From contig NZ_VLLE01000003.1 of NCBI RefSeq assembly GCF_007830055.1, positions 558,001 to 622,000 on the forward strand: a stretch of 64,000 nucleotides of DNA, read 5' to 3'. This document shows, piece after piece, positions 47,020 through 62,171 of the stretch (within the stretch, counting starts at the first letter, position 1; each line of letters starts with the position of its first letter). This DNA comes from Lacibacter cauensis (lineage in GTDB: Bacteria > Bacteroidota > Bacteroidia > Chitinophagales > Chitinophagaceae). Both the position numbers and the translations under genes were made by a program. Under the pieces are notes generated by a model, which saw only the letters and a program-made list of their open reading frames with translations, searched no databases and was not told the DNA's origin.

Positions 47020-47091
47020 AATTGATAATTTTATAATGGATAGCTGATAATGATTCCGTACTTATGAATTATCAATTATTCCGATATCCAT
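47020..47091. repeat. Interleaved inverted repeats between EamA gene and purH
   Basis: AATTGATAATT (47020-47030) pairs with AATTATCAATT (47067-47077), and ATGGATA (47036-47042) pairs with TATCCAT (47085-47091). The pairings interleave and reach the purH stop. Confidence 0.5.
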
Positions 47092-48593
47092 TAGTGTTTA
47101 AAGTGCCGCATACCTGTAATTACCATTGCCAGGTTATTTTGTTTACAGTATTCGATTGAATCATTGTCACGGATAGAACCACCCGGCTGAATGAATGCAA
47201 CAATACCTGCTGCATGACCTAACTGCACACAATCATTGAACGGGAAGAACGCATCACTCGCCATCACCGCACCATTCAGATCGAAATTGAATTGTTTTGC
47301 TTTTTCAACAGACTGACGAAGCGAATCGATACGGCTTGTTTGTCCGCAACCTTTACCCACCAGTTGTTTATTCTTCACCAATGCAATGGCATTCGATTTT
47401 AAATGTTTGCAGATGAGGTTGGCAAATGCCAGGTCTTCTTTTTCTGCAGCCGTTGTTTCTCTTCCACCGGCTTCTTTCCATTCGGTGTAATTGCCTTCAT
47501 CTACACCTTGTACCAACACACCGTTGAGAATAGATTTGTATTGCTCTATTACGTTTGGTTGTGCTTTCAGTTGTAACAAGATGCGGTTCTTCTTCGACTT
47601 CAATACTTCCAATGCATCCGCAGCAAACGAAGGAGCGATTAATACTTCAAAGAAAATTTCGTTGATGGCGTCAGCCGTTGCTTTATCAATTTCGCCATTG
47701 CAAACCAACACACCACCAAATGCACTTTCGTTATCGCCTGCAAGTGCGGTATCCCAGCTGTCTTTTACTGTTGCACGTTGCGCCACACCACATACATTGG
47801 TGTGTTTGATGATAGCGAACGTAGTTTCTGTAAATTCTTTGATGAGTTGCACCGCTGCATCCACATCAACCAGGTTATTGTATGAAAGTTCTTTACCGTT
47901 TAATTGGGTAAACAGTTCATCAAGGTTGCCGAAGAAACGTGCACTTTGATGAGGGTTCTCACCATAACGCATGATCTTTTCATCTTTGTTGAAAGGTGTT
48001 TCAACAGCGGATTGATGGAAGTAGTTGCTGATAGCAGTGTCGTATGCAGTACACACATCAAATGCTTTGATGGCAAACGCACGACGTTGTTCATAAGTTG
48101 TTGAACCGTTTTGCTCACGCAGAATATTTTCCAACACGGCATATTCTTTCTTCGCTGCCAATACCACTACGTCTTTATGATTTTTTGCACCGGCACGGAT
48201 CATCGATGGTCCGCCGATATCAATTTTTTCAATGATTGCTTTTTCATCGGTTGTTGAAGCAACCGTTTCTTCAAACGGATACAGATCAACAATCACCAGA
48301 TCCATTTCAGGGATATTGTATTGGTTCATTTCAGCTAAATGCTGTTCATCGTCACGCTTGCCGAGGATACCGCCGAATACAGAAGGGTGCAATGTTTTTA
48401 CTCGGCCACCCAAAATAGAAGGGTAGCTGGTTAAATTTTCAACAGGCACTACCGGAACGCCGAGTTTTTCAATAAACTGCTGGGTGCCGCCGGTTGAATA
48501 AATGGTTACATTTTGCTCGTGGAGGAGCTTTACCAATGAATCAAGACCGTCTTTGTAAAAAACTGAGATGAGTGCCGATTGAATTTTCTTCAT
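47091..48593 (-). CDS. purH: Bifunctional AICAR transformylase/IMP cyclohydrolase
   Basis: PurH catalyses the last two steps of IMP synthesis. The product has 500 residues starting MKKIQSALISVFYKDGLDSL. The N-terminal MGS-like cyclohydrolase domain (1-150) has 'TIYSTGGTQQFIEKLG' and 'GGRVKTLHPSVFGGILGKRD'. The AICAR transformylase part contains 'MRYGENPHQSARFF' and 'FAIIKHTNVCGVAQ', then 'AVMASDAFFPFNDCVQLGHA'. The ATG at 48591-48593 is chosen over an upstream in-frame codon. Confidence 0.97.
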   Translation of the reverse strand: MKKIQSALISVFYKDGLDSLVKLLHEQNVTIYSTGGTQQFIEKLGVPVVPVENLTSYPSILGGRVKTLHPSVFGGILGKRDDEQHLAEMNQYNIPEMDLVIVDLYPFEETVASTTDEKAIIEKIDIGGPSMIRAGAKNHKDVVVLAAKKEYAVLENILREQNGSTTYEQRRAFAIKAFDVCTAYDTAISNYFHQSAVETPFNKDEKIMRYGENPHQSARFFGNLDELFTQLNGKELSYNNLVDVDAAVQLIKEFTETTFAIIKHTNVCGVAQRATVKDSWDTALAGDNESAFGGVLVCNGEIDKATADAINEIFFEVLIAPSFAADALEVLKSKKNRILLQLKAQPNVIEQYKSILNGVLVQGVDEGNYTEWKEAGGRETTAAEKEDLAFANLICKHLKSNAIALVKNKQLVGKGCGQTSRIDSLRQSVEKAKQFNFDLNGAVMASDAFFPFNDCVQLGHAAGIVAFIQPGGSIRDNDSIEYCKQNNLAMVITGMRHFKH

Positions 48594-48610
48594 AAATGTG
48601 ATTGATTTTG

Positions 48611-48680
48611 GCCACAAAGGCACTTAAGTCACGAAGCGGCACGAAGAAAAGAATGTGCCGGAGCTTGAGTTCTTTGTGGC
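48611..48680. repeat. GCCACAAAG dispersed inverted repeat upstream of purH
   Basis: GCCACAAAG (48611-48619) and CTTTGTGGC (48672-48680) pair around a 52-base centre with CACGAAG-type near-repeats. It lies between purH and comEC. Confidence 0.5.
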
Positions 48681-48710
48681 AAGACTTTAAGAAGGCGCAA
48701 AGGTAAGCCT

Positions 48711-50774
48711 CTACAGGTTCATCACAAAAGCGCCCTGCTCACTTGTGCAGAAATAGTTAATGCCGAGCTTTTCGCAATCGGCTTTCCAGTATTTCAGCTT
48801 CCATTGCGGGTTGGAACTGTCGAACACCAGCAGCTTACAGTTGATTGTTTTCTGTAATTGGTTGAGGTAGAGTTTGGGATTTTGGGAGATGATCACCACA
48901 TCGGCAGTAATCTTTTTAGTAGAATCGTAGCGGTATGATTGGTTGATGTGAAGGATGGTTTTATGGTTGATGGTCCACACTTTGTTTGTGTTGAGGTTTG
49001 GCTGATGATAGGTGCGGTGTGCAATGCGGGAAGGTTTGAGGTGAAAGTTGCGCAGGAAACCATCCTGCAGCAAAACAGAATCGCCGGCGAAGTAATATTG
49101 ATCGCCCAGCATAAAATCGATCGCTGTGTGCTGCGATAAATTGTACACCACCAGTTTTTGTTGCTGTATTGTCTGGTAACGGTAGAACGATTGCACTGCA
49201 AAGAAGCAAACGATGCAGCCGAGCAGCCAACGCAATGCAGTTTTATTTTTTTCAATGAGCCAGATGCCTGCTGCTGTTATGATGGCGTACAGTAAAATGG
49301 TTTGAACAGGTGCATGTTGAATACCATCCACTACTGCAAACGTAAAATGATCGACCCAGAGAATAAACTGGTTCATGATCCAGAGCATTTTTGTAATGAG
49401 CCAACCAGTTGCATTCGCCAGTACAGTAATTGGTGAAACGAGCATTAAAAAGATCAAGACATACAAAACCAAACTCGATAACGGTACAGCAATTAAGTTG
49501 GTGATGAGAAACAATGTGGGAGCCTGGTGAAAATGATACATGCAAAGCGGTAGCGTTAATATTTGTGCAGATAGGGTTAATGCATTCAGCTTCCACAATC
49601 CATCGAGTAATTTATTTTGAATTGCAAACCAGTTGTAGATGGGTTTCATAAAGAGTACAATACTCAATACAGCTGCATAGGATAACTGAAAGCCAACATC
49701 CCACAACAAAAATGGATTAAAGAGTAAGAGTGCAACTGCAGATGCCGCCATGCTGTTGTAAATATTTCCTTTACGGTCGAGCAGTTCTGCACCAATAATT
49801 ACGGTGAACATGATTACTGCTCTTAATACCGATGCACTGGCGCCTGTTAATAAACTGAACAACCAAAGCAACACAATTACCAGAATGGCCCGGATGAGTT
49901 TCATGCGCCTGTTGCGGTTGAACCGTTTGAACAGGAACATGAGCAAACCATAGATCAATCCAAGATGCATACCACTTACTGCAATAATGTGTACCACGCC
50001 GGTGTTGCTGTATGCCTGTACCAAGTCTCTGTCAAGATCATCACGATAACCAATGAGCAACGCTTCGGCTATGCTTTGCTCCATATCGCCGGCTACATGT
50101 TTGCGGATGGTTTGCAGAATATAACTCCGTGCATTGTACATCGTTTTCCAGAAGAACGCTGTTTGCTGTTGCGGTAACTTGTTATACTCGTTTGATTTGA
50201 CAAAGAGCTGATGAGTGATGCCGTTGAACAACGCATAACGCTTATAATCGAACCCGCCGGGATTACCTGCATTTTTTATTTCCTGTAAGTTGCTGCGTAC
50301 AAGAATCACATCACCATATTGTAAAGAAGGCGCAATACTATCCTTGCGGAAATAGATCATCGCCCTGCCTTTTACCTTTCTTGCTTTTTGTTGATGATAG
50401 ACAACACTGATTTCACTAAGTGCTTTGTATGTTTTCTCACGCTCACTTAATGGTTCGAGTAAACGCAGTTGTACCACATTGCCTTCTTTGTAAAAATGCC
50501 CGGCCCAGTTTGGTTGATGGGGTAGTTGATTGAACCAGTTTAATGCGATACCGAATGCAATAAAAAGAATATTGAAAGTAATGCCATTGACCCAGCCATG
50601 ATAAAATTTGTTGCGCTGGCCACTAAACTGAAAAAAGAGATAAACAGGAAGAGCAATTACTGCAGCTATTAAAGCTATTTGCCAATGCAAAGAAAAATAC
50701 CAGCCACCTAAAATACCTGCACTGAGCGGAACGAAGATGCGGAGGAAAGGGATGTTTTTCCAGAAGGGGATCAT
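48711..50774 (-). CDS. ComEC/Rec2-family DNA uptake channel
   Basis: A 687-residue protein with about ten membrane helices. An N-terminal OB-like DUF4131 part has 'AMIYFRKDSIAPSLQYGDVI'. The central Competence domain has 'NTGVVHIIAVSGMHLGLIYG' and 'LTGASASVLRAVIMFTVII'. The C-terminal about 170 residues recall a metallo-beta-lactamase fold but lack its HxHxDH metal ligands. ComEC imports single-stranded DNA in transformation. The shortened C-terminus is also seen in other Bacteroidota (recalled). No other competence gene is adjacent. Confidence 0.9.
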   Translation of the reverse strand: MIPFWKNIPFLRIFVPLSAGILGGWYFSLHWQIALIAAVIALPVYLFFQFSGQRNKFYHGWVNGITFNILFIAFGIALNWFNQLPHQPNWAGHFYKEGNVVQLRLLEPLSEREKTYKALSEISVVYHQQKARKVKGRAMIYFRKDSIAPSLQYGDVILVRSNLQEIKNAGNPGGFDYKRYALFNGITHQLFVKSNEYNKLPQQQTAFFWKTMYNARSYILQTIRKHVAGDMEQSIAEALLIGYRDDLDRDLVQAYSNTGVVHIIAVSGMHLGLIYGLLMFLFKRFNRNRRMKLIRAILVIVLLWLFSLLTGASASVLRAVIMFTVIIGAELLDRKGNIYNSMAASAVALLLFNPFLLWDVGFQLSYAAVLSIVLFMKPIYNWFAIQNKLLDGLWKLNALTLSAQILTLPLCMYHFHQAPTLFLITNLIAVPLSSLVLYVLIFLMLVSPITVLANATGWLITKMLWIMNQFILWVDHFTFAVVDGIQHAPVQTILLYAIITAAGIWLIEKNKTALRWLLGCIVCFFAVQSFYRYQTIQQQKLVVYNLSQHTAIDFMLGDQYYFAGDSVLLQDGFLRNFHLKPSRIAHRTYHQPNLNTNKVWTINHKTILHINQSYRYDSTKKITADVVIISQNPKLYLNQLQKTINCKLLVFDSSNPQWKLKYWKADCEKLGINYFCTSEQGAFVMNL

Positions 50775-50833
50775 GGGTGTTAGCTGCTTTACAGTAAGAT
50801 AAAAACAGCAGGTTAGAAATGCAAGTGGTTGCT

Positions 50834-50888
50834 CACGGATTTCTCAGATAAGCACGGATTTTTTCTTTGTATCTCCGTGTAATCTCCG
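50834..50888. repeat. ATCCGTG/CACGGAT family repeat upstream of comEC
   Basis: Two CACGGATT units, then CTCCGTGTAATCTCCG, the reverse type, are spaced about 35 bases apart. It is the same family as 56445-56528 and 57621-57705. Confidence 0.45.
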
Positions 50889-50923
50889 CCTGCATGGCTT
50901 ACGGCGGACAGGAGTGAGAGATA

Positions 50924-51397
50924 TTATTCCCCTAATAAATTTTTCAAAAATGCTATTTGACCTAAATGATAAATATTATGCTGTATCAATCCATTGAGCA
51001 GGAAACGAAAATTGTATTCACGGTAATCAACCATTTCATTTAGGAAAGCATCGTCTTTTGTTTGCAGTTCGGCAACGAGTTGTTTGTGTAGCTGTTCAAA
51101 CTCATCCAATGCTTTTGCCCATGTATGTACTTTCGGATCAATGATGCGCCAATCCATTTCTTCTGCAGTTTTTAAATCGTAATCCTGTTTCTTTTGCACA
51201 CGGCTTAATGTAAACTCCGCCCAGGTGATCATGTGATACAATATTTCAATAGCTGCATGCGAGTTCTTGGGATTGATATACACAACTGCCGGATGAATTT
51301 TCCGCAGCATGGGCATCACTGCTTCGCCATACCAGGGCTGGCCGGTTAACACTCGTTCGAGGTTTGTGATGATCGATTGTACTTCTTTGTTGTTCAT
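50924..51397 (-). CDS. DinB-like four-helix protein
   Basis: A 157-residue soluble helical protein with the DinB/YfiT metal-binding histidines in 'ILYHMITWAEF' (about 53-63) and 'GLIQHNIYHLGQIAFLK' (about 136-152). DinB-superfamily proteins include thiol-dependent transferases and many of unknown role. It sits alone between comEC and the carB block, with the 13-bp repeat copy just upstream. Confidence 0.85.
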   Translation of the reverse strand: MNNKEVQSIITNLERVLTGQPWYGEAVMPMLRKIHPAVVYINPKNSHAAIEILYHMITWAEFTLSRVQKKQDYDLKTAEEMDWRIIDPKVHTWAKALDEFEQLHKQLVAELQTKDDAFLNEMVDYREYNFRFLLNGLIQHNIYHLGQIAFLKNLLGE

Positions 51398-51567: not shown

Positions 51568-51590
51568 AACTCCGCAACAAGTGCGGAGTT
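51568..51590 (-). terminator. Intrinsic terminator after carB C-terminal half
   Basis: AACTCCGCA/TGCGGAGTT form a 9-bp stem across ACAAG. Read on the minus strand it is followed by TTTTTTATT. It lies only 7 bases past the stop. Confidence 0.88.
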
Positions 51591-51596
51591 GAAAAT

Positions 51597-52790
51597 TTAT
51601 TTACTGAGATACATGCTTCTGTCTTTATACAACTGACGGAAGTAAGGATCACGCAGATTTTTAATAAAACGGATGGCTTCACCCGTACTCTTCATTTCAG
51701 GTCCAAGCTCTTTGTTTACGTTCGGGAATTTGCTGAAGCTGAACACCGGTTCTTTAATGGCGTAACCTGTGAGCTTTTTCTCAAATGTAAAGTCGGTGAG
51801 TTTGTTTACACCCATCATTACTTTGGTAGCAATGTTGAGGTAAGGGATCTGGTAGGCCTTTGCAATGAACGGCGTAGTACGGCTGGCACGTGGGTTGGCT
51901 TCAATTACATACACTTTGCCATCTTTAATCGCAAACTGAATGTTGATGAGACCTTGTATTTTCAATGCTTTCGCAATTTTCTTTGCGTACTCTTCCATGG
52001 TTGCAACAACCAGCGGCGTAAGGTTGAACTCAGGTAACACAGCATGACTATCGCCACTGTGGATACCGGCCGGCTCAATATGTTCCATTACACCCATTAC
52101 GTGGAAATTTTCACCATCGTAAATGGCATCAATTTCGGCTTCCTGGCAACGATCGAGGAAATGATCGATGAGGATTTTATTGCCGGGCAAATGTTTGATG
52201 AGGCTTAATACCGCACTTTCCAGCTCGGTTTCGTTAATAACGATCCGCATACGCTGACCGCCCAATACATAACTGGGACGAACCAGTACAGGATAACCCA
52301 CTTCTTTCGCTACCTCAATGGCATCGTCGGTAGTGTAGGCTGTACCGTATTTTGGATAAGGAATCTCCAGTTCTTTCAACAGATCGCTGAAACGGCCACG
52401 ATCTTCGGCAATATCCATACTGTCGAAGGAAGAACCGATGATGCGGATTCCTTTTTCGTGCAGACGTTTTGCGAGCTTGAGCGCTGTTTGTCCGCCCAAC
52501 TGTACGATGACGCCGTAAGGTTGTTCCAGCTCAATAATTTCCCAGAGATGTTCCCAGTTCACCGGTTCGAAATACAGCTTGTCAGCCATATCGAAGTCGG
52601 TACTAACCGTTTCGGGGTTACAGTTCACCATGATTGCCTCGTAGCCACATTCTTTGATGGCGAGCAAACCATGTACACAGCAGTAGTCGAACTCGATACC
52701 CTGACCGATACGGTTGGGGCCACTGCCGAGAACAATAATTTTTTTACGTTGAGATGGAATGGATTCGTTGTGAAGGATCGTATTTGCCAT
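51597..52790 (-). CDS. carB: Carbamoyl-phosphate synthase large subunit, C-terminal half (split gene)
   Basis: A 397-residue protein equal to the second ATP-grasp (carbamoyl-phosphate) half of CarB. It starts MANTILHNESIPSQRKK and then IIVLGSGPNRIGQGIEFDYC, exactly where a full-length CarB crosses into its second half. It keeps 'MVNCNPETVSTDFDMADKLY', 'VIVQLGGQTALKLAKRL', 'RPSYVLGGQRMRIV' and 'NVQFAIKDGKVYVIEANPRA', and ends DRSMYLSK. The allosteric MGS-like domain of E. coli CarB is absent, as in other Bacteroidota CarB (recalled). A -7 box lies 7 bases upstream. The N-terminal half is 5 kb away at 57778-59424. Confidence 0.93.
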   Translation of the reverse strand: MANTILHNESIPSQRKKIIVLGSGPNRIGQGIEFDYCCVHGLLAIKECGYEAIMVNCNPETVSTDFDMADKLYFEPVNWEHLWEIIELEQPYGVIVQLGGQTALKLAKRLHEKGIRIIGSSFDSMDIAEDRGRFSDLLKELEIPYPKYGTAYTTDDAIEVAKEVGYPVLVRPSYVLGGQRMRIVINETELESAVLSLIKHLPGNKILIDHFLDRCQEAEIDAIYDGENFHVMGVMEHIEPAGIHSGDSHAVLPEFNLTPLVVATMEEYAKKIAKALKIQGLINIQFAIKDGKVYVIEANPRASRTTPFIAKAYQIPYLNIATKVMMGVNKLTDFTFEKKLTGYAIKEPVFSFSKFPNVNKELGPEMKSTGEAIRFIKNLRDPYFRQLYKDRSMYLSK

Positions 52791-52797
52791 TGCGGTG

Positions 52798-52805
52798 CAA
52801 ATGTA
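52798..52805 (-). promoter_or_regulatory. Putative -7 box of carB C-terminal half
   Basis: TACATTTG on the minus strand ends 7 bases before the ATG at 52790, indicating independent expression of this half. Confidence 0.55.
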
Positions 52806-52876
52806 CGGTTACAGGAAAAATTTTGAGGGATTTTTTCACCCAAATTTTGGCCGATTTTACTAACAGTTATGAGTTG

Positions 52877-53236
52877 TCAGAAGGGTTGCTCCAGGTCTTG
52901 CTTGTTGTACAGGTGATTACGGCTGTTGAACAGCGATTGTTGAGCACCGGCTTTTTTTACAAACTGGGTTTTACCCAGCAGCCGCATGAGGAGTGCAATG
53001 GGCGTAAGAATCACGAAAAAAATAATACTTAACAGGATGCGGCTATTGATATAACCCAGCACTTTGGCTAAAAGCATCCAGCCCAGGTGAATGTATTCGC
53101 CAACAGGCCCGACAATAAAACCAATGGTGCTGATGCCGACAGGAATGAGCATCCACTCTTTTTTAAACAAAAGAAAGAATACGCCAAAACCGAGTGCAAT
53201 AACAAGCAGTGAAGTATGTTTTGCCTTCCACTTCAT
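52877..53236 (-). CDS. SxtJ-like membrane protein
   Basis: A 119-residue protein with hydrophobic segments at about residues 8-24, 30-47 and 68-88. It starts MKWKAKHTSLLVIALGFGVF and includes 'EWMLIPVGISTIGFIVGPVG' and 'HLGWMLLAKVLGYINSRILL'. The pattern matches SxtJ, a protein of unknown function that follows the carbamoyltransferase SxtI in cyanobacterial saxitoxin clusters (recalled, not searched). The start overlaps the preceding DUF5989 stop (TAATG), so translation is coupled. It probably lies in the inner membrane and may tether the carbamoyltransferase (inference). Confidence 0.8.
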   Translation of the reverse strand: MKWKAKHTSLLVIALGFGVFFLLFKKEWMLIPVGISTIGFIVGPVGEYIHLGWMLLAKVLGYINSRILLSIIFFVILTPIALLMRLLGKTQFVKKAGAQQSLFNSRNHLYNKQDLEQPF

Positions 53237-53388
53237 TAAAATAAGGAGTAGATAAATGGTGCAACGGCAGAACTACCGCCGAAAATGAGCAATACGCCCA
53301 GCAAGAGCATAACAATAATAATCGGGGCCAACCACCATTTCTTGCGCACTTTTAAAAAGGCCCACATGTCTTTTAAGAATTCGAGCAT
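53236..53388 (-). CDS. 50-residue DUF5989 (SxtK-like) membrane protein
   Basis: ATG at 53386-53388, TAA at 53236-53238. It encodes MLEFLKDMWAFLKVRKKWWL, then a hydrophobic helix and SSAVAPFIYSLF. An amphipathic basic start, one membrane helix and the ending AVAPFIY-LF are the marks of DUF5989, the family of SxtK in saxitoxin clusters and a frequent neighbour of carbamoyltransferases (recalled). It starts 3 bases after the SGNH gene and its stop overlaps the SxtJ-like start. Its function is unknown. Confidence 0.85.
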   Translation of the reverse strand: MLEFLKDMWAFLKVRKKWWLAPIIIVMLLLGVLLIFGGSSAVAPFIYSLF

Positions 53389-53391
53389 AGT

Positions 53392-54543
53392 TTAGTTTAT
53401 TAGCAAACTGTCAATTTTCTGCAGAATACTGTCAGCAATTGCTGTGTTCATTTCTGGTGAATAATGAACCCGATCAATAAATGGGAAGCGAACACTCCCA
53501 TCCAGCATGTTTGCAAGGTATAAACTGTTGTTCATTTTTTTGAAATTCGTTTCTATAGCCGGGTTCAAAAACGCATATACAGGAAACGAGTCTTTATCAC
53601 AAAAAGGATCTTTTAATTGGTTGGAATAATTATAATAGGGTACTGGCTGCCATACAAACAACGTATTAAATGCGTATGCTTTTGCGGTTCGGCTTACTGT
53701 TTCGGTTGTTAAGCTGTAATTGTTTAATAAAATGTTTGCTTTTTCTTTTGCAGATCGGTTTTGATCTTTTATATAATATCTTTCAATGGAGTCAGTTACA
53801 TTTTTCCCTCTTGCAAATGGAAAATTACCTTTGAAGTACTCCCGCAAAAAACCGGAGTAAAAAGGTTCTCTATGTAAAGGTGCAGGATAAAAGACCACAT
53901 CGTTCAACCCATCCAAAAAAATAACCAGATCAGGCGTTTGCTCGTACAAAAGTCTGTCTTGCAAAAGTTTCATTTCCTGGAAACTATAATAAGATCGTAC
54001 GCCATAGTTAGAGACCTCTAAGCTTTTTTTGTATTTAGCAGCTTGACTGTATAACTGGGCGAATTTAGCTGGAATGGTTTCGTCATCCGTAACATTAAAT
54101 CCCCACATGGTGGAGCCTCCAAAAAACCAGACACGAAAAGTATCGATTCCTTTGGCTACGAACGACGGAATACTTTTTCTGATGAAGCCTGTTGTGTTAA
54201 CATGTTTTGAGGTAACATCTATATTACGGAACTGAAGCCACGGATCGAATTCAAATGCATTTGCCGCAGCCATTTCCTGTACGATCTCTTTACTTAGTTC
54301 ATCTGCTTTCCCATTACGAATCAGTTGTTGGTTTCGGAACTGTACTTCCGACTCCTGTCCATTGAGTTTGGAATTGACAACTCTGCTTTTTGCACTTATA
54401 AAGAAATCGACAATAGCTAACTTGTTATTGCCGTATTTATAGTGAAATGCTATGCTTAAAAAAGCTTCGACTAAAAACATGCAAAACAGGCACAACAGTA
54501 TGTAATACAATAGCCGTTTTAAACGTGAAGGTTTCTGTTCCAT
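53392..54543 (-). CDS. Membrane-anchored SGNH-fold protein 1
   Basis: A 383-residue protein. An N-terminal anchor (about residues 11-31) is followed by an extracytoplasmic SGNH/GDSL-like domain. Block I is FFGGSTMWGF (nucleophile Ser), block III is GLNDV and block V is DRVHYSP (Asp and His). The full Ser-Asn-Asp-His set is present, so it may be an active esterase or acyl/carbamoyl-type transferase. It sits between the carbamoyltransferase (12 bp upstream) and the DUF5989 gene (3 bp downstream) in one operon. Confidence 0.85.
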   Translation of the reverse strand: MEQKPSRLKRLLYYILLCLFCMFLVEAFLSIAFHYKYGNNKLAIVDFFISAKSRVVNSKLNGQESEVQFRNQQLIRNGKADELSKEIVQEMAAANAFEFDPWLQFRNIDVTSKHVNTTGFIRKSIPSFVAKGIDTFRVWFFGGSTMWGFNVTDDETIPAKFAQLYSQAAKYKKSLEVSNYGVRSYYSFQEMKLLQDRLLYEQTPDLVIFLDGLNDVVFYPAPLHREPFYSGFLREYFKGNFPFARGKNVTDSIERYYIKDQNRSAKEKANILLNNYSLTTETVSRTAKAYAFNTLFVWQPVPYYNYSNQLKDPFCDKDSFPVYAFLNPAIETNFKKMNNSLYLANMLDGSVRFPFIDRVHYSPEMNTAIADSILQKIDSLLIN

Positions 54544-54555
54544 GTAGCCGTGTGT

Positions 54556-56418
54556 TTAATCAGCTTTTAGTGTTTTTTTCCAATCCTCTTTTTCTTTCCA
54601 TGCCGGCTGATCGCTTTTACTGAAAAGATAGTTTTCGATAACAAGATAATCCATTTCGGTACGCATGAAACATTGATACGCTTCCTGCGGAGTACACACA
54701 ACCGGCTCGCCACGCACATTAAAGCTCGTGTTAATCAACACTGCACAACCTGTCTGTTGTTTAAATGCTGTGATGAGCGAATGAAAAGCAGGATTGGTTT
54801 CTTTGTGCACCGTTTGCACACGTGCCGAATAATCGATATGTGTTACGGCCGGTAAACTGCTGCGTTGAAAATATAATTTATCGGTTAAGTTGAGTTGATG
54901 ATAATTCGCCGGTACAGGATGCTGCAAATTTTTTTTCACCGGTTGAACCAGCAACATGTAGGGAGATGTAGTAGTTAATTCAAAATAATCCTGTACATCT
55001 TCTGACAATGCAGCCGGGGCAAACGGGCGAAACCCTTCCCGGTATTTTATTTTCAGATTAAGTTTTTTTTGCATCTCCGGGTTACGTGGATCAGCAATAA
55101 TACTTCTGTTGCCTAATGCACGTGGACCAAACTCCATCCGTCCCTGGAACCAGCCAATTACATTTCCATTGCTGATGTGTGTTGCAACTGTTTTATTTAA
55201 TTCATCTCTGTTGTTGAATGCAGTTGCAACCGCTTTGTATTGTTGAATGGTTGATTCAATTTCACCAGTAGAAAAAGAAGGACCGAGATAAGAACCTTTC
55301 ATGGCATCCATTGCTGAACTGACAATACGTTCTTTTTCAAAATAGATATGATGTGCCGCTAAGGCCGAACCAGCTGCACCGCCTGCATCGCCGCTTGCAG
55401 GTTGAATGAACATATTTTCGAAGAGATTAGCGTTTTGTAGTTTGCCGTTTGCCACACAATTCAGTGCCACACCGCCTGATAAACAGATATTTTTTGAACC
55501 TGTAATTGCTTTTGCATGTGCAGCAAGTTTCAATACAATTTCTTCCGTTACCTGTTGAATGGCGAGTGCAAGACTACAATGTTGCTGTGTGAGTTCTTCT
55601 TCCTCGCCTCTGCGTTTAAAGCCGAACAGTGTTTCAAACTTTTTATCTTTTACCATGCGTAAACCAACGGCATAATTGAAATACTGTTGATCCAGATAAA
55701 TGGAACCATCATCATAAATCGTTATAAGCTTTTCCTTAATGGTAGAAACGAACTGTTTTGTTTGTTCTGCGGATGGATCACCATACGGTGCTAAGCCCAT
55801 TAATTTATATTCACCACTGTTTACTTTAAAGCCTAAGTAATAAGTAAACGCAGAATACAATAAACCAACAGAGTGGGGGAAGTTGAGTTGTTTGAGTATT
55901 TCGATGTTTTTTCCGTTGCCTTTGCAAATGGTTGTTGTGGCCCATTCGCCTACACCGTCAATTGTTACTATTGCTGCTTCTTCAAATGGCGATGGGTAGA
56001 ATGCCGATGCTGCATGACTGAGATGGTGCTCGGGAAATAAAAGTTTCAGTTTCTTTTTATCGTAGGGTTGAAGTTTCTTCAACTCATCACGGATCATTTT
56101 TTTCAGAAACAGTTTTTCATTCAACCATACAGGCATTGCCATTAAAAAAGAAGTAAATCCTTTTGGTGCAAATGCATAATAGGTTTCAAGTAAGCGCTCA
56201 AACTTCAGTAGTGGTTTATCGTAAAATACAACAGCTTCCAGTTGATCGATTGTTACACCTGCTTCCTTTAAACAATACACAACCGCTTTTGAAGGAAACC
56301 CGGCATCGTGTTTTTTTCGGCTGAAACGTTCTTCCTGTGCAGCGGCAATGATCTCGCCATCTTTCAGGATAGCTGCAGCAGAATCATGATAAAAAGCCGA
56401 AATGCCGAGAATGTACAT
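54556..56418 (-). CDS. O-carbamoyltransferase, NodU/TobZ/SxtI family
   Basis: A 620-residue enzyme of the family that transfers the carbamoyl group of carbamoyl phosphate, via carbamoyl-AMP, to hydroxyl groups. The N-terminal ASKHA domain (about 1-360) has 'MYILGISAFYHDSAAAIL', 'AAQEERFSRKKHDAGFP', the metal His motif HHLSHAASAFYPS and 'IVTIDGVGEW', then 'LSGGVALNCVANGKL'. The C-terminal domain has 'GWFQGRMEFGPRALGNRS' and 'INTSFNVRGEPVVCTP'. TsaD/HypF share the fold but not these motifs. The acceptor is unknown. It lies between the carB halves, which make its donor. Confidence 0.95.
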   Translation of the reverse strand: MYILGISAFYHDSAAAILKDGEIIAAAQEERFSRKKHDAGFPSKAVVYCLKEAGVTIDQLEAVVFYDKPLLKFERLLETYYAFAPKGFTSFLMAMPVWLNEKLFLKKMIRDELKKLQPYDKKKLKLLFPEHHLSHAASAFYPSPFEEAAIVTIDGVGEWATTTICKGNGKNIEILKQLNFPHSVGLLYSAFTYYLGFKVNSGEYKLMGLAPYGDPSAEQTKQFVSTIKEKLITIYDDGSIYLDQQYFNYAVGLRMVKDKKFETLFGFKRRGEEEELTQQHCSLALAIQQVTEEIVLKLAAHAKAITGSKNICLSGGVALNCVANGKLQNANLFENMFIQPASGDAGGAAGSALAAHHIYFEKERIVSSAMDAMKGSYLGPSFSTGEIESTIQQYKAVATAFNNRDELNKTVATHISNGNVIGWFQGRMEFGPRALGNRSIIADPRNPEMQKKLNLKIKYREGFRPFAPAALSEDVQDYFELTTTSPYMLLVQPVKKNLQHPVPANYHQLNLTDKLYFQRSSLPAVTHIDYSARVQTVHKETNPAFHSLITAFKQQTGCAVLINTSFNVRGEPVVCTPQEAYQCFMRTEMDYLVIENYLFSKSDQPAWKEKEDWKKTLKAD

Positions 56419-56444
56419 GGGTGCAAAATAAGCTATTATGGAAA

Positions 56445-56528
56445 CACGGATGACGCAGATTTGTGCAGATGAAAACGGATTTCTGATCAGTATTGATCAG
56501 TATTGATCTGTGTTATCCGTGATTCTAT
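56445..56528. repeat. ATCCGTG-family repeat overlapping the 3' end of SGNH gene 2
   Basis: Contains CACGGATGACGCAGATT, two copies of TGATCAGTATT and the 24-base GATCTGTGTTATCCGTGATTCTAT (56505-56528). The last sequence recurs with one mismatch at 57682-57705 in the same orientation. It encodes the last 13-14 codons of the SGNH gene. Confidence 0.65.
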
Positions 56529-57590
56529 CTCTTTATTTAATATCTCTGCCACTTTAGCCGCTCCCTGTTTATTAAAATGTATAAAGTCGTAGTAATAAAG
56601 TGTATTCTTCGGCATCAGCTTCGCCAAATCAATAACAGTTACCTGCGTGCTGAATGCACGCACAACATTATTATACTCTTCCAACACCTGCTCCTGCAAC
56701 AAATTATTTTTTCCGGGGTTGCTTTCATGAAACTTCAGATCCATTTTGATACCGGTAGTACTATCGGTATAAGAGCCATACAAAGATGGTTGTGTAAGAA
56801 GTATGGGTTGAATTTGATTGGCTTTGCAAATACTGATGATCTCCTGTAATCTGGAATGATAACCGATGAGGTGATTCTTTTGCCTGGCAATAGCTTCCTG
56901 AATATATGCCGTAGTATAGGTTGTATCTCTCAATTGCTTAAAATCAACATCTTTATGGATCAATCCCTTTTTATAGGCAGAACGGATATTGTACAGTTGA
57001 AAAACAGTTGCACCGATCTCTGTTTTATTGAGCAATGATTTAATGAATGCTTTTACAGAACCATACTGCAATTTGTTTTCATTCATCAGATCAAATTGTT
57101 CGGGCTTCTCTGTTTCCACATCATTCACACCTGTTAGCAACAGCACATACTTCGGCTTTAGTTTGCTGATGTATTCCTTCATCAACAACAAATGCCCAAA
57201 GGTGGAATGCCCGTCAATACCTGCATTGTTCACCCATAAGTTGGGTATTGAATCTTTCAGCTTTTCCCCTAGGAGAAAGGGCCATGTCGTACTATCGCTC
57301 AAAAAACGGCACTCGGTTGTGCTGCCACCAACTGTAATAATGGAGTTGAGCTTTTGAATACTATCAGTCGGCATTGGCCCACGAAAACCTAATGCATTTC
57401 TGCTGTAACAGATCTTTGTATCCAGTTGTTTGATCCATTGATTATCGAATACTGTTTGCTGATTAGCAGGCAACACCAACTTTCCCTGCTTGGTAAAATT
57501 GGTGAATGGGTTATAAATACGCAACACAATTTCGCACAACACAAGTGCAACAAGTAATCCAAACAATAATGCTTTCAGGTTTTTGATCAT
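56487..57590 (-). CDS. Membrane-anchored SGNH-fold protein 2
   Basis: A 367-residue protein. An N-terminal anchor (about 5-25) is followed by an extracytoplasmic SGNH domain: block I is TVGGSTTECR (Ser), block III is GVNDV, and the C-terminal block V is DFIHFNKQGA. It differs from SGNH protein 1 in most of the sequence. The last residues ESRITQINTDQY are encoded by a dispersed repeat. Near-identical 24-bp direct repeats lie on both sides of the gene, suggesting that it could be gained or lost as a unit. It precedes the carbamoyltransferase by 68 bp. Confidence 0.85.
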   Translation of the reverse strand: MIKNLKALLFGLLVALVLCEIVLRIYNPFTNFTKQGKLVLPANQQTVFDNQWIKQLDTKICYSRNALGFRGPMPTDSIQKLNSIITVGGSTTECRFLSDSTTWPFLLGEKLKDSIPNLWVNNAGIDGHSTFGHLLLMKEYISKLKPKYVLLLTGVNDVETEKPEQFDLMNENKLQYGSVKAFIKSLLNKTEIGATVFQLYNIRSAYKKGLIHKDVDFKQLRDTTYTTAYIQEAIARQKNHLIGYHSRLQEIISICKANQIQPILLTQPSLYGSYTDSTTGIKMDLKFHESNPGKNNLLQEQVLEEYNNVVRAFSTQVTVIDLAKLMPKNTLYYYDFIHFNKQGAAKVAEILNKEIESRITQINTDQY

Positions 57591-57620
57591 GGTACTGTAA
57601 GATAAAAACTGTTTACGATA

Positions 57621-57705
57621 GAAACACTGGTGACACTGATTTGAACGGATGAACCCGGATTTAATCTGTGCCTATCTGCTTGATCCGTGTTATCCGTGAT
57701 TCTAT
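57621..57705. repeat. ATCCGTG-family repeat upstream of SGNH gene 2
   Basis: Includes CACTGATTTGAACGGATGAA, CCGGATTTAATCTGTGCC and the 24-base GATCCGTGTTATCCGTGATTCTAT (57682-57705), direct partner of 56505-56528. Confidence 0.65.
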
Positions 57706-57716
57706 TTTTTGTAAAT

Positions 57717-57743
57717 AAAAAAGCAGCGGAATAAACCGCTGCT
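57717..57743 (-). terminator. Intrinsic terminator after carB N-terminal half
   Basis: AGCAGCGG (57722-57729) and CCGCTGCT (57736-57743) pair across AATAAA; on the minus strand T6ATTT follows. It ends 35 bases past the carB1 stop and separates it from the inserted genes. Confidence 0.88.
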
Positions 57744-57777
57744 CTCTTTATTTCTTTTCACTTTTTCAATCTCTTAG

Positions 57778-59424
57778 TTACTCAAACGTACTATAGAAAT
57801 ACGGCGTCTTCGCCTCAAACTCGGCGCTGCAGGTATCTACCATTTTGTACACACGGGTAATGCCCCATGCCTTCCGTTTTTCGTAGAGTTCATCTTCGCT
57901 GGCATCCTCTTTCATAATGCGACAGATCTGCTCATCGCCAAAGCCCATACGTTTTGCTTCTTTCAGTAATTCTTTAGGCAGCGATTGCATATCGTGTTTC
58001 GCCAGTTCTTTTTCCATGTTTACAATATCCTGGATCTGGTAAATGAACCAACGGTCGATCTTGGTTGCCTCAACAATCGTCTTCACACTAACACCGGCCA
58101 TCAACGCATCTTTAATTCGGAAAATGCGATCCCATTTCGGCACCTTGATGTATTCAATCAGCTCTTCGGCATGTTTTACACTTTGTCCGTAGTAGCCCAA
58201 GCCAACTGCATTGTTCTCTAAACTTTGACAAGCTTTTTGCACCGCTTCCGTAAAGCTGCGGCCAATGCTCATCACTTCACCCACACTCTTCATCTGTAAA
58301 CCTAAACGGTCATCAGCACCTTTAAACTTGTCGAAGTTCCAACGTGGCATCTTCACAATTACATAGTCCAATGCAGGCTCAAAGTAGGCAGAAGTCGTTT
58401 GTGTGATCTGGTTTTTCAATTCATCCAACGTATAACCAATCGCCAGCTTTGCAGCAATCTTCGCAATCGGATAACCGGTTGCTTTACTTGCCAACGCAGA
58501 AGAACGGCTTACACGTGGATTGATCTCCACTGAAATAATTTCTTCGTTCTCCGGGTTTAAAGCGAACTGTACGTTACAACCACCGGCAAAGTTGCCGAGG
58601 CTGCGCATCATCTTAATCGCCATGTTACGCATGTTCTGGAAAGCTGTATCGCTCAGCGTCATCGCCGGAGCAACCGTAATACTGTCACCGGTATGCACAC
58701 CCATCGGGTCGAAGTTCTCTACTGTACAAATAATAACAACGTTGTCGTTCTTATCACGCAGCAGTTCAAGTTCATATTCTTTCCAGCCAATCAGCGCTTT
58801 CTCCACCAGCACTTCGTGTATCGGGCTGGCCTGCAAACCTCTTTCAAGTGCGGCATCCAGTTCTTCTTTGGTATTGACAAAACCGCCACCGGTTCCACCC
58901 AGCGTAAACGACGGACGAATCACCAATGGAATACCGATTTCCTGTGCAAATTCTTTTCCTTCCAGCAATGAGTTAGCCACTTTTGAAGGCGCAACACCCA
59001 CCCCAATTTCAATCATCAGCTGACGAAACTTTTCACGGTCTTCGGCAGTATCAATTGCTTTTACATCCACACCAATCATCCGCACATTGTTCTTTTCCCA
59101 AACACCCAGCTCATCAGCCTCTTTACAAAGGTTCAGGGCTGTTTGTCCGCCCATGGTTGGCAACACTGCATCAATCTGCGGGTTTTCCTCCAGTATCTGT
59201 TCAATACTTTCAACCGTAAGCGGCAACAGGTACACACGGTCAGCCATCATGGGGTCGGTCATAATGGTGGCGGGGTTACTGTTGATGAGGATCACTTCAA
59301 TTCCTTCTTCACGAAGGCTGCGGGCTGCTTGCGAACCCGAATAATCAAACTCACAGGCCTGGCCAATCACAATGGGGCCGCTGCCTACAATCAGCACACT
59401 TTTTATCGAATTATCTTTTGGCAT
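57778..59424 (-). CDS. carB: Carbamoyl-phosphate synthase large subunit, N-terminal half (split gene)
   Basis: A 548-residue protein equal to the carboxyphosphate domain plus oligomerisation domain of CarB. It has '[20 protein letters not shown]', '[20 protein letters not shown]', '[13 protein letters not shown]', '[14 protein letters not shown]' and '[20 protein letters not shown]'. It ends [20 protein letters not shown] and a stop, precisely at the end of the first half of a full CarB. Together with the other half (397 residues) it makes about 945, the usual Bacteroidota length. It makes carbamoyl phosphate for pyrimidines and arginine with CarA, which is not in the window. Confidence 0.94.
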
Positions 59425-59811: not shown

Positions 59812-61518
59812 ATGCTCAAACATGTTTTTACTTCTTGTTTTTTATTGTTCATTATTCATACTGCAAAGGCACAGCTTTTTCCTGAGCACAACTATCCAAC
59901 CAATTACTTCCGGTATCCGTTGGATATACCACTGAAGCTGAATGCGAACTTTGGCGAAATGCGTCCGAACCATTTTCACATGGGGTTGGATCTGTTTACA
60001 CTCCGCAGAGAAAACCTGCCCGTTTATGCACCGGCCGATGGATGGATTTCGAAAGTTAAAGTTGATCCCAACGGTTTTGGTAATGCAATTTATGTAAGCC
60101 ACCCCAATGGGTACACCTCCTTGTATTGCCACATGAATACCTTCCCCACAAAAGTGTTGCAGGCAATGAAAGAAGGACAGTATGTGAAAGAAAGCTGGAA
60201 GGGCGATGTGGAGTTTGCAAAAAATCAGTTTCCGGTAAAGAAAGGAGAGTTTTTAGCATATAGCGGCAACACCGGCGCATCTGCAGGTCCGCATGTGCAT
60301 TATGAAATCCGCCGCACCGAGGATGATGCCTGTTTGAACGCATTGTTATTTCATCGTGTATATGATGTAACCCCGCCAGATATTACCAAGCTGGCCGTGT
60401 ATGATCGTACAAAAAGTACGTATGAGCAAACACCTAAAACACTGATGCTTTCAAGGGCGGCAGGAGGTTATAGCGTACCGGGAGGAACAATTACAGTGAA
60501 CAGCGAAGCAGTATCGTTTGCTATTGTTGCTACCGATCGTGTTACAGGTGTGCCCAATGCCAATGGTATTTTTGAAGCACTTGTGTACGTGGATGAAGAA
60601 GCCATCAGCGGTTTTCGGGTAGATGGGATTGATTATTTGCAAACACGTTATCTTAATGCACATATCGATTATCGCATTAAAGCAAATGGAGGTTCTTACT
60701 ATCAGCATATTTCTCCATTGCCTGGCGATCGGTTACCGATTTATTTTAAAAAGGATGATGGACTGATTCATTTGGATGATACCACAACACACCAGGTGAA
60801 GATTGTAGTAAAAGATGCAAATAATAATGCTTCAACAGTTCGTTTTCAATTGAAGCGTTCGGCATGGACAAGTGCTGCTACAAATGTGCAGAAGGACAGT
60901 CGGTATATGTTGCCTAACCAGATCAATATTTTTGAACAAGGCGATGTGCAGATGGTGAGCAGTGAAAAAAGTTTTTACGATGCATTCCGGTTGGTGTACA
61001 ACTATAAAACAAGTGCCACTGCCTTTTCTAACATTCATGTCATGCATTCGCCAACCGTTCCGGTGCACGACTCCATGATGTTTCGAATAAAGCCGAACAA
61101 AGAAATTCCGGCAAGTGCACGCAACCGTGTTATTATGATTCATAATACAAAAGGAAAAGTGGTGGTTGAACGTGCAACACTGGTAAAAGGCTGGTACGAA
61201 GCAAAGAGTCGTGACTTTGGTGAGTTTTGGTTAGAGGTTGATGAAGTGCCGCCAACAATTACCGTTGCAGGTGTTACCGATGGCGGAACAGTGGTTGCAG
61301 GGTCGCCCATTACGGTTACAGTTGCAGATAATAAAAAAGCCATTTACAGTTTTCGTGCAGAACTCGACGGACAGTGGTTAATGTTCGCCGGTTTAGGTCC
61401 GGTGTTTCGTTACAAAACAGATGAGTATTGTCCTATTGGTGATCATGAGTTAAAGTTGAGAGTGGAGGACGAAGCAGGCAATGTAACGGAACGCATCATC
61501 CGTTTTACGAGAAAATAA
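59812..61518 (+). CDS. M23-family metallopeptidase, exported
   Basis: A 568-residue exported protein with leader MLKHVFTSCFLLFIIHTAKA. A LytM/M23 domain spans about residues 45-185. Metal ligands are visible in NHFHMGLDLF (His and Asp) and GPHVHYEIRR (catalytic HxH), with 'SPNGYTSLYCHM'-like sequence between them (SHPNGYTSLYCHMN). The long C-terminal part (about 200-568) has Ig-like segments, such as 'PPTITVAGVTDGGTVVAGSP' and 'DHELKLRVEDEAGNVTERII'. It probably cuts peptidoglycan peptides or acts as an envelope scaffold. The start is adjacent to a -7 box. Confidence 0.9.
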   Translation: MLKHVFTSCFLLFIIHTAKAQLFPEHNYPTNYFRYPLDIPLKLNANFGEMRPNHFHMGLDLFTLRRENLPVYAPADGWISKVKVDPNGFGNAIYVSHPNGYTSLYCHMNTFPTKVLQAMKEGQYVKESWKGDVEFAKNQFPVKKGEFLAYSGNTGASAGPHVHYEIRRTEDDACLNALLFHRVYDVTPPDITKLAVYDRTKSTYEQTPKTLMLSRAAGGYSVPGGTITVNSEAVSFAIVATDRVTGVPNANGIFEALVYVDEEAISGFRVDGIDYLQTRYLNAHIDYRIKANGGSYYQHISPLPGDRLPIYFKKDDGLIHLDDTTTHQVKIVVKDANNNASTVRFQLKRSAWTSAATNVQKDSRYMLPNQINIFEQGDVQMVSSEKSFYDAFRLVYNYKTSATAFSNIHVMHSPTVPVHDSMMFRIKPNKEIPASARNRVIMIHNTKGKVVVERATLVKGWYEAKSRDFGEFWLEVDEVPPTITVAGVTDGGTVVAGSPITVTVADNKKAIYSFRAELDGQWLMFAGLGPVFRYKTDEYCPIGDHELKLRVEDEAGNVTERIIRFTRK

Positions 61519-61575
61519 ACCGGATTTGTTCAGTGAGTTTCAAATGAACAAATCATTCAAATCCGTGTTTCTATC
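61519..61575. repeat. GATTTGTTCA inverted repeat between M23 and bcp genes
   Basis: GATTTGTTCA (61523-61532) and TGAACAAATC (61545-61554) pair perfectly, with AAATCCGTG of the ATCCGTG family just beyond. Confidence 0.5.
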
Positions 61576-61592
61576 AAAACAGTTTACGAGCA

Positions 61593-62171
61593 ATGGCAAC
61601 GAAGAAGAAAGCCGCAGTTAAAAAAGCAGCAGCAAAATCAGTAAAGAAAGCAGCAACAAAGTCAGCAACAAAAAAGGCAATCAAAAAAGAACCATTTAAG
61701 AACTACGTTACCAAGTTAAAAGCGGGCGATAAAGCACCTGTTTTTAAAGGCATCGATCAGGATGGTAAACCCGTTTCATCTGCCAACTACAAAGGAAAAA
61801 AGATTATTCTGTATTTCTATCCGCAGGATCTTACACCTACCTGTACTGTACAGGCTTGTAACCTCCGTGATAATTTTTCACTACTTCAAAAAGAAGGCTA
61901 CGAAATTATTGGTGTAAGCGAAGACGATGTAAACAAGCATAAGAAATTTGAAGAGCGTAATACGTTACCGTTTCGTTTGATTGCTGATGTAGACCATGCC
62001 ATTATTAATGCATACGATGTTTGGGGCAAGAAACAGTTCATGGGCAAAATTTACGATGGTTTGGTGCGTACCACTTTCGTAATTAACGAAAAGGGCATCA
62101 TTGCAGCAGTTATTTCAAAAGTTGATTCAAAAAATCACGCCCAGCAAATATTGGATCTGGTAAAGCAATAA
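61593..62171 (+). CDS. bcp: Bcp-type peroxiredoxin with histone-H1-like tail
   Basis: A 192-residue protein. Residues about 1-33 are almost only Lys, Ala, Ser and Thr (MATKKKAAVKKAAAKSVKKA ...), resembling histone-H1 or HC1-type tails. A standard Bcp/PrxQ thiol peroxidase domain follows with 'GDKAPVFKGIDQDGKPVSS', 'ILYFYPQDLTPTCTVQAC' (peroxidatic Cys, then resolving Cys five later) and 'VRTTFVINEKGIIAAVI'. It reduces peroxides. No internal ATG could replace the start, so the tail is real. DNA or RNA binding by the tail is inference. Confidence 0.92.
   Translation: MATKKKAAVKKAAAKSVKKAATKSATKKAIKKEPFKNYVTKLKAGDKAPVFKGIDQDGKPVSSANYKGKKIILYFYPQDLTPTCTVQACNLRDNFSLLQKEGYEIIGVSEDDVNKHKKFEERNTLPFRLIADVDHAIINAYDVWGKKQFMGKIYDGLVRTTFVINEKGIIAAVISKVDSKNHAQQILDLVKQ

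Follow-up and report, generated by a model that had tools for sequence, protein, structure and literature searches.

Recurrent splitting of carB in Chitinophagaceae and the probable repeated arrival of an O-carbamoylation module at the break

Why should genes predicted to consume carbamoyl phosphate lie inside the broken gene for the enzyme that makes it? The question is raised by a 64,000-nucleotide stretch of the Lacibacter cauensis genome (contig NZ_VLLE01000003.1, positions 558,001 to 622,000; hereafter the window), in which carB, encoding the large subunit of carbamoyl-phosphate synthase, is present as two genes, carBN and carBC. The 5-kb gap between them holds genes for an SGNH hydrolase (SGNH1), a NodU-type O-carbamoyltransferase (NodU), a second SGNH-like protein (SGNH2), a DUF5989 protein and an SxtJ-like protein, all co-directional with both halves. 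We consider it probable, short of confident, that carB has undergone recurrent fission at its native site in the family Chitinophagaceae and that an O-carbamoylation module has arrived repeatedly at the break. Genera, genomes and loci of the comparison are numbered with the prefixes g, G and L, g1 being the genus of the window. The elements of the locus are as follows.

59424-57778, minus strand: carBN, the N-terminal half of the carbamoyl-phosphate synthase large subunit, 548 aa (TIGR01369 positions 1-543; Pfam CPSase_L_D1/D2/D3; E. coli CarB 1-548)
57722..57743, minus strand: intrinsic terminator-like hairpin immediately 3' of carBN, then TTTTTATTT (fold of the 51 nt around it -20.7 kcal/mol, z -6.1)
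57590-56487, minus strand: SGNH1, SGNH/GDSL hydrolase with an N-terminal hydrophobic helix (PF13472; structure model pLDDT 73; Foldseek match to TesA/GDSL esterases)
56418-54556, minus strand: NodU/TobZ-type O-carbamoyltransferase, 620 aa (PF02543 and PF16861; PDB relatives NovN, GdmN, TobZ)
54543-53392, minus strand: SGNH2, second SGNH-like protein (PF13472 below Pfam's cut-off)
53388-53236, minus strand: DUF5989 small protein, 50 aa (PF19451, E 3.8e-25)
53236-52877, minus strand: SxtJ-like protein, 119 aa (PF19588, E 6.1e-10)
52798..52805, minus strand: TACATTTG, matching the Bacteroidetes -7 promoter element TAnnTTTG, 15 nt 5' of the carBC start
52790-51597, minus strand: carBC, the C-terminal half of CarB, 397 aa, without the allosteric (MGS) domain, starting MANTILHNESIPSQRKK (TIGR01369 547-930; E. 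coli CarB 557-924)
51568..51590, minus strand: intrinsic terminator-like hairpin immediately 3' of carBC (fold z -3.9)

Alignment to E. coli CarB, of which the N-half covers residues 1-548 and the C-half 557-924, places the cut in the linker joining the two synthetase halves, bearing out the original prediction that carB is split at a domain boundary into two co-directional genes. Both synthetase halves are present in the E. coli order, and both ATP-grasp halves retain the EDR, RPS, H[TS]GDS and NPR motifs. The allosteric domain is likewise missing from nearly all intact CarB proteins listed for the family, whose matches stop at about position 926-997 of 1052 (G090 excepted). A search of the window's genome found no intact carB, the presence of which had been proposed as a sign that the pairing is coincidental; it recovered the two halves and, beyond these, two weak hits (E 2e-15 and 3e-5) of partial length, which cover model positions 645-874 and 665-841 only. 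The carA gene of this genome is on another contig, and in all 13 genomes checked carA was present and never adjoined carB. An assembly artefact was ruled out as the cause of the split, because congeners have the same arrangement. As separate observations on copy number, congener G258, which has a split carB and the module, carries a second, intact and very divergent carB (L276, contig C3:175203-178193) that was possibly acquired by transfer and is followed by an open reading frame (ORF) resembling accB by eye, and the split genome G070 has two N-halves on different contigs (L069 and L070).

Two-gene CarB also occurs in Methanocaldococcus. In Aquifex aeolicus, as in the window, the large subunit consists of two chains, one per synthetase half, and PMC6022934 reports that the isolated chains catalyse the partial reactions. 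Unlike in Aquifex, the intact and split forms interchange many times in Chitinophagaceae, and the gap can hold a module that uses carbamoyl phosphate. The top-listed titles and abstract openings of open-licence articles in PMC yielded nothing on split carB in Bacteroidetes or on a module within carB, although such papers may exist.

The family-wide survey revealed that the split is common. The CarB cut-off was passed by 139 of 244 Chitinophagaceae genomes (order-wide, by 192 of 248). Eighty of the 105 family genomes below it, including the window's, were searched individually; those left out are mostly less complete, with some nearly complete ones among them (e.g. G212, G216, G221, G238). An N-half was found in 78 of these 80 genomes and a C-half in 78, and the cut was in the same linker in all loci whose ends were read. 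Among the 79 genomes besides the window's, the halves were linked in 8, no partner lay within 8 kb in 63, a call that needed at least 8 kb of sequence on one side of a half, and contig ends left 8 undecided, one of which (G033) appears intact but cut by its contig. The module was absent from the stretches fetched in 61 of the 63 genomes with separated halves, the exceptions being G083 and G169. The expectation that split and module always occur together therefore failed, since most split-carB relatives examined lack the module at either half; the accompanying expectation that relatives without the module often have one continuous carB held. Two side observations concern detection. The N-half alone passes the NCBI CarB model PRK05294 (850 versus 599 bits) and the C-half misses it (558.7), so that the annotation of a split genome may list a complete CarB together with an unnamed ATP-grasp protein. 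Several nearly complete genomes in other families of the order (e.g. G400, G412, G427 and G434 of f8; G521 and G544 of f12) gave no CarB-length match, with best E of ~1e-16 to 1e-23.

A careful CarB tree of 42 rows requires 11 changes between the intact and split states, 8 of them forced by well-supported branches (bootstrap values are rough), in a count that does not separate gain from loss. The alternation reaches into single genera. Genus g46 has split members G045 and G134 and an intact member, G198; g94 combines an intact G094 with six members whose halves are separate, and G221 of this genus yielded nothing beyond a C-half piece at the end of a contig; and in g36 the split G361 stands amid intact members, G127 and G382 on the tree and G282, G035 and G312 besides. 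Fission of carB is thus frequent and recurrent in Chitinophagaceae.

The neighbours of the two halves were then compared with those of intact carB. In the window they are:

59812..62171, plus strand: M23 peptidase and AhpC/TSA-type peroxiredoxin (Prx) genes, divergent, upstream of carBN (Pfam; also beside intact carB of relatives)
47091..51397, minus strand: DinB, ComEC-type (Competence) and PurH genes, downstream of carBC (Pfam; also beyond intact carB of relatives)

The intact carB of G226 (g3) has divergent M23 and Prx genes on its upstream side and ComEC and PurH genes on its downstream side; that of G085 is accompanied by M23, Prx, DinB and ComEC, and that of G065 by M23, Prx and PurH. 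Across 35 intact loci, many read only 1.5 kb past the gene, M23 was seen in 15, DinB in 5, Prx in 5, ComEC in 4 and PurH in 2. A divergent Prx gene was found at 20 and M23 at 17 of 76 N-half loci (linked ones included, ~1.5 kb upstream read), and downstream ComEC at 20 and PurH at 11 of 68 C-half loci. Because its flanks are the same as those around intact carB in relatives, the window's locus is the native carB site, and the flank data fit descent of the split forms, or at least of a good share of them, from one ancestral locus.

The predicted content of the gap was confirmed by Pfam, with SGNH2 falling below the cut-off. NodU carries both the Carbam_trans_N and Carbam_trans_C domains of the CmcH/NodU O-carbamoyltransferases (TobZ, NovN, GdmN, NodU, SxtI), and TobZ, GdmN and decarbamoylnovobiocin carbamoyltransferase are its relatives; it misses the equivalog cut-off for nodulation NodU (NCBIfam NF041651, 151.3 versus 1000 bits), making it a relative of that enzyme and not a nodulation NodU. 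The saxitoxin cluster likewise has a NodU-type enzyme, SxtI, alongside a protein of the SxtJ type; the combination of NodU and SxtJ is widespread, and the window gave no sign of a saxitoxin pathway, other sxt genes not having been searched for. Enzymes of the NodU type are described in PMC6022934 as using carbamoyl phosphate and ATP to carbamoylate hydroxyls, on sugars or other parts of molecules. For SGNH1, the model indicates with moderate confidence an esterase-type fold and speaks to the fold only. Its GGST, G.ND and D..H columns, which correspond to the Ser, Gly, Asn and His blocks of such hydrolases, are invariant in 11 rows. Among the matches listed, which come from many phyla, 67 of 80 related loci have DUF5989 and SxtJ genes in the vicinity of NodU, the NodU loci of named genomes being a sample of module context and not a census. 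The trio is accordingly a long-standing set, and what is locally peculiar is the link with carB: among the same matches, the set lies just 5' of a same-strand carB half at 1 of 80 loci (L244, by its position G326 of g94).

A close NodU relative (E up to 1e-190) occurs in 61 of 394 family genomes and 26 of 101 genera; in the window's genome NodU is the sole match above the family cut-off. In the 61 genomes, carB is intact in 37, split in 19 and unreadable in 5. NodU lies in the gap or adjoins a half in 16 of the 19 split genomes (eight of g1, G027 of g28 and seven of g94), and split and NodU are both present but unlinked in G055, G164 and G361. It adjoins intact carB in none of the 37: the two share a contig in 3 (nearest distance 84 kb) and are on different contigs in 34, where contig ends could hide a neighbourhood. 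If NodU were placed at random in a 5-Mb genome, its occurrence within 10 kb of a half in 3 of the 26 genera would have a probability of 1.2e-3 with either strand allowed, or of 1.6e-4 with the same strand required; both values were computed after the pattern was seen. The original prediction had held that close relatives with a split carB and unrelated genes in the gap would make the pairing coincidental. Most relatives have unrelated genes or none in the gap, yet the pairing exceeds random placement.

Could the gap of a split carB simply be a harmless landing site, in which the module sits without functional reason? Of the alternatives this one fares best, although we regard it as doubtful. 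Other genes do occupy such gaps. In g83 (L098, L099) the gap holds an ORF6N-domain gene, a type common in mobile elements; in G160 (L037), on which Pfam was run, it holds a family-2 glycosyltransferase, a protein without a Pfam match and a UDP-galactopyranose mutase on the opposite strand, and G292 (L311) has like genes, also on the opposite strand. We infer from these glycosyltransferase and mutase genes a hint at a surface glycan. The linkage has also been lost again. G083 keeps the module with carBN and has carBC elsewhere; in G169, G265 and G326, NodU lies directly 5' of carBC, accompanied in the two loci read that far (G169 and G326) by DUF5989 and SxtJ, and carBN is 75-107 kb off, with SGNH1 remaining behind it in G169 and G265. 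In G346, NodU and carBC share a contig, the N-half and SGNH1 were both not found, and a partial ORF resembles SGNH2 by eye; the gaps of G213, G160, G083 and G027 contained no match to SGNH2. Against indifferent capture stands the repetition of the same genes. SGNH1 directly follows carBN in 14 genomes of four genera (g1, g28, g94 and g36), as the sole gene of the gap in G361, and of the five lineages with any gap gene (g1, g28, g94, g36 and g83) four have the SGNH1 type and three have NodU, in the same order and on the same strand in those three. Inspection of the gaps by eye also revealed no mobile-element gene, although no search aimed at such genes was made.

The original prediction proposed a different sequence of events, in which a carbamoylation operon inserted into a continuous carB, split it, and was possibly kept because supply and use were then inherited or regulated together. 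The signals around the genes bear on this directly. In the window, the hairpin with its T-run begins 34 nt past the carBN stop, and terminator-like stems meeting our rule follow carBN also in G160, G369 and G390; G213 and G083 have a similar hairpin by eye that fails the rule, and none was found in G027, G298, G265, G361 or G321. PMC6847099 gives TAnnTTTG as the -7 element of Bacteroidetes. We found this motif 10-75 nt 5' of the conserved NES codons of carBC at 66 of 83 split loci, or 40 of 47 when one locus per genus was taken and unlabelled loci were counted singly. Windows farther upstream gave 0/83, 1/82, 1/82, 2/81 and 4/80 (8/408 in total), and the equivalent place inside intact carB 5/45. 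The starts of carBN carry it at 65 of 88 split loci, compared with 15 of 45 intact ones. The window has one copy 15 nt 5' of carBC and another 24 nt 5' of carBN; the closest copy to SGNH1 is 200 nt upstream, within the end of carBN, and none was found within 200 nt 5' of NodU, SGNH2, DUF5989 or SxtJ. A scan for sigma-70-type promoters, with 12 found against 17.3 expected, was uninformative. Judged by these motifs, carBN has its own terminator and carBC its own promoter motif, which favours the view that the halves are separately transcribed. Co-regulation of supply and use is accordingly unsupported in g1, where the strong carBN terminator and the carBC promoter motif separate the halves from the module.

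The order of events in g1 points the same way. In G390 the halves are 134 nt apart, with a terminator and a promoter motif between them, and in G321 they are ~30 kb apart on opposite strands; neither genome has a NodU match at threshold, and both branch outside the five module-bearing g1 rows (100/97). The arrangement in G390 favours a split that preceded the module, and we infer that order for g1. (The G321 and G390 genomes measure 2.4 Mb, versus 4.2-5.1 Mb in the eight other g1 members seen.) Of the predicted insertion, what stands is that the module occupies the native carB locus and that it adjoins carB halves in three genera which do not form a single carB clade; insertion as the cause of the split in g1 does not, given the adjacent halves without a module in G390. 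Some data do suit an operon that broke its host gene: in G027 (g28) and in three g94 genomes (G169, G298 and G265) SGNH1 begins at or within the stop of carBN, and no terminator was found in G027, G298 and G265; the linkage in 16 of 19 split NodU-bearing genomes and the post hoc placement values for 3 of 26 genera are as it would predict; and in G361, which clusters with its intact-carB congeners on the CarB tree, the insertion of the SGNH gene seems to have broken carB. They are outweighed by the 63 of 79 genomes that lack a partner half within 8 kb, with the module in the stretches fetched only for G083 and G169, by the lack of any adjoining NodU in the 37 intact genomes (subject to the contig ends noted above), by the terminator and promoter motif in the window's genus, and by two loci outside the family (L214 and L223) in which carB is 4-7 kb from NodU but on the opposite strand. 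Taken together, these results make the originally predicted sequence of events unlikely.

A single entry into carB, after which the module moved from genus to genus (recombination via the conserved carB flanks being one route) or was inherited and then lost by re-fusion, would explain why gene order is identical in g1, g28 and g94. It is harder to reconcile with the carB trees, and we judge it improbable. Forcing the 8 module rows into one carB clade was rejected (dlnL 409, p-AU 5.9e-9), and G027 is sister to G059 (98/94), which has an intact carB and an SGNH1-NodU pair elsewhere. Local linker trees rejected a group of g1, G027 and G361 (p 0.039 and 0.010) and kept G361 with its intact congeners; g1 with G027 was borderline (p 0.050 and 0.062), and G027 with G059 was not rejected (p 0.25 and 0.054). 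The module genes themselves are more accommodating. The carB-linked SGNH1 genes cluster in one clade, to which G059, G366 and the very long row L229 also belong; confining the clade to the carB-linked genes was rejected (p 0.0099, in a set that includes very long rows). NodU of g1, g28 and the unlinked G059 group together (98/89), and the best NodU trees separate g94, with two forced changes; a single clade of all carB-linked NodU was nevertheless not rejected (p 0.245 and 0.259), so a single travelling module is possible. A first FastTree tree had suggested two clearly separate NodU origins, a claim weakened by the result that one clade was not rejected. Donor-like carB tracts at the linker were hinted at in one window of G027 only and not in the local trees, which are weak because the alignments are short. 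The carB genes are thus native to their lineages, whereas the modules may have been recruited separately or may be a single set that travelled.

That fission is itself partly adaptive, freeing the carbamoyl-phosphate-forming C-half to assemble beside membrane-bound NodU for a local or channelled supply of the labile compound, a pairing reached more than once in the family, we consider very unlikely.

We therefore return to recurrent fission at the native site with repeated arrival of the module. Under this account, the CarB large subunit would have been split in place, at the inter-synthetase linker, into two apparently separately transcribed genes, whose chains, with CarA encoded elsewhere, should form a working enzyme by analogy with the split Aquifex enzyme. 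The gap would later have been filled by the O-carbamoylation module, and such modules would have reached the break more than once in the family. The NodU-type enzyme is predicted to convert carbamoyl phosphate and ATP to carbamoyl-adenylate and to move the carbamoyl to a hydroxyl, probably on a membrane-bound glycan or lipid precursor; DUF5989 and SxtJ may be its small membrane partners, and the SGNH hydrolase would act outside the membrane. Metabolic coupling of supply and use is plausible. Several points weigh against this account. A promoter for the module itself was not identified in the window; G361 is without the motif in the tested stretch, its nearest copy being 88 nt 5' of carBC; and the promoter and terminator calls are predictions from sequence. 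The CarB tree is a gene tree and not a species tree, and the module may have been lost from the small genomes of G390 and G321, which leaves split-first unproven. Just 5' of the break, in one window, G027 is closer to g1 and G361 (79-82%) than to its carB sister G059 (71%), and the near-single SGNH1 clade and the unrejected single NodU clade likewise suit a common source.

For the family, these findings mean that a textbook essential enzyme repeatedly breaks and disperses, providing many intact and split relatives in which the cost and use of fission can be tested. They carry a warning that carB halves are easily mis-annotated. The recurrence of a carbamoyl-phosphate consumer at the break makes it directly testable whether gene neighbourhood reflects the supply of a labile intermediate.

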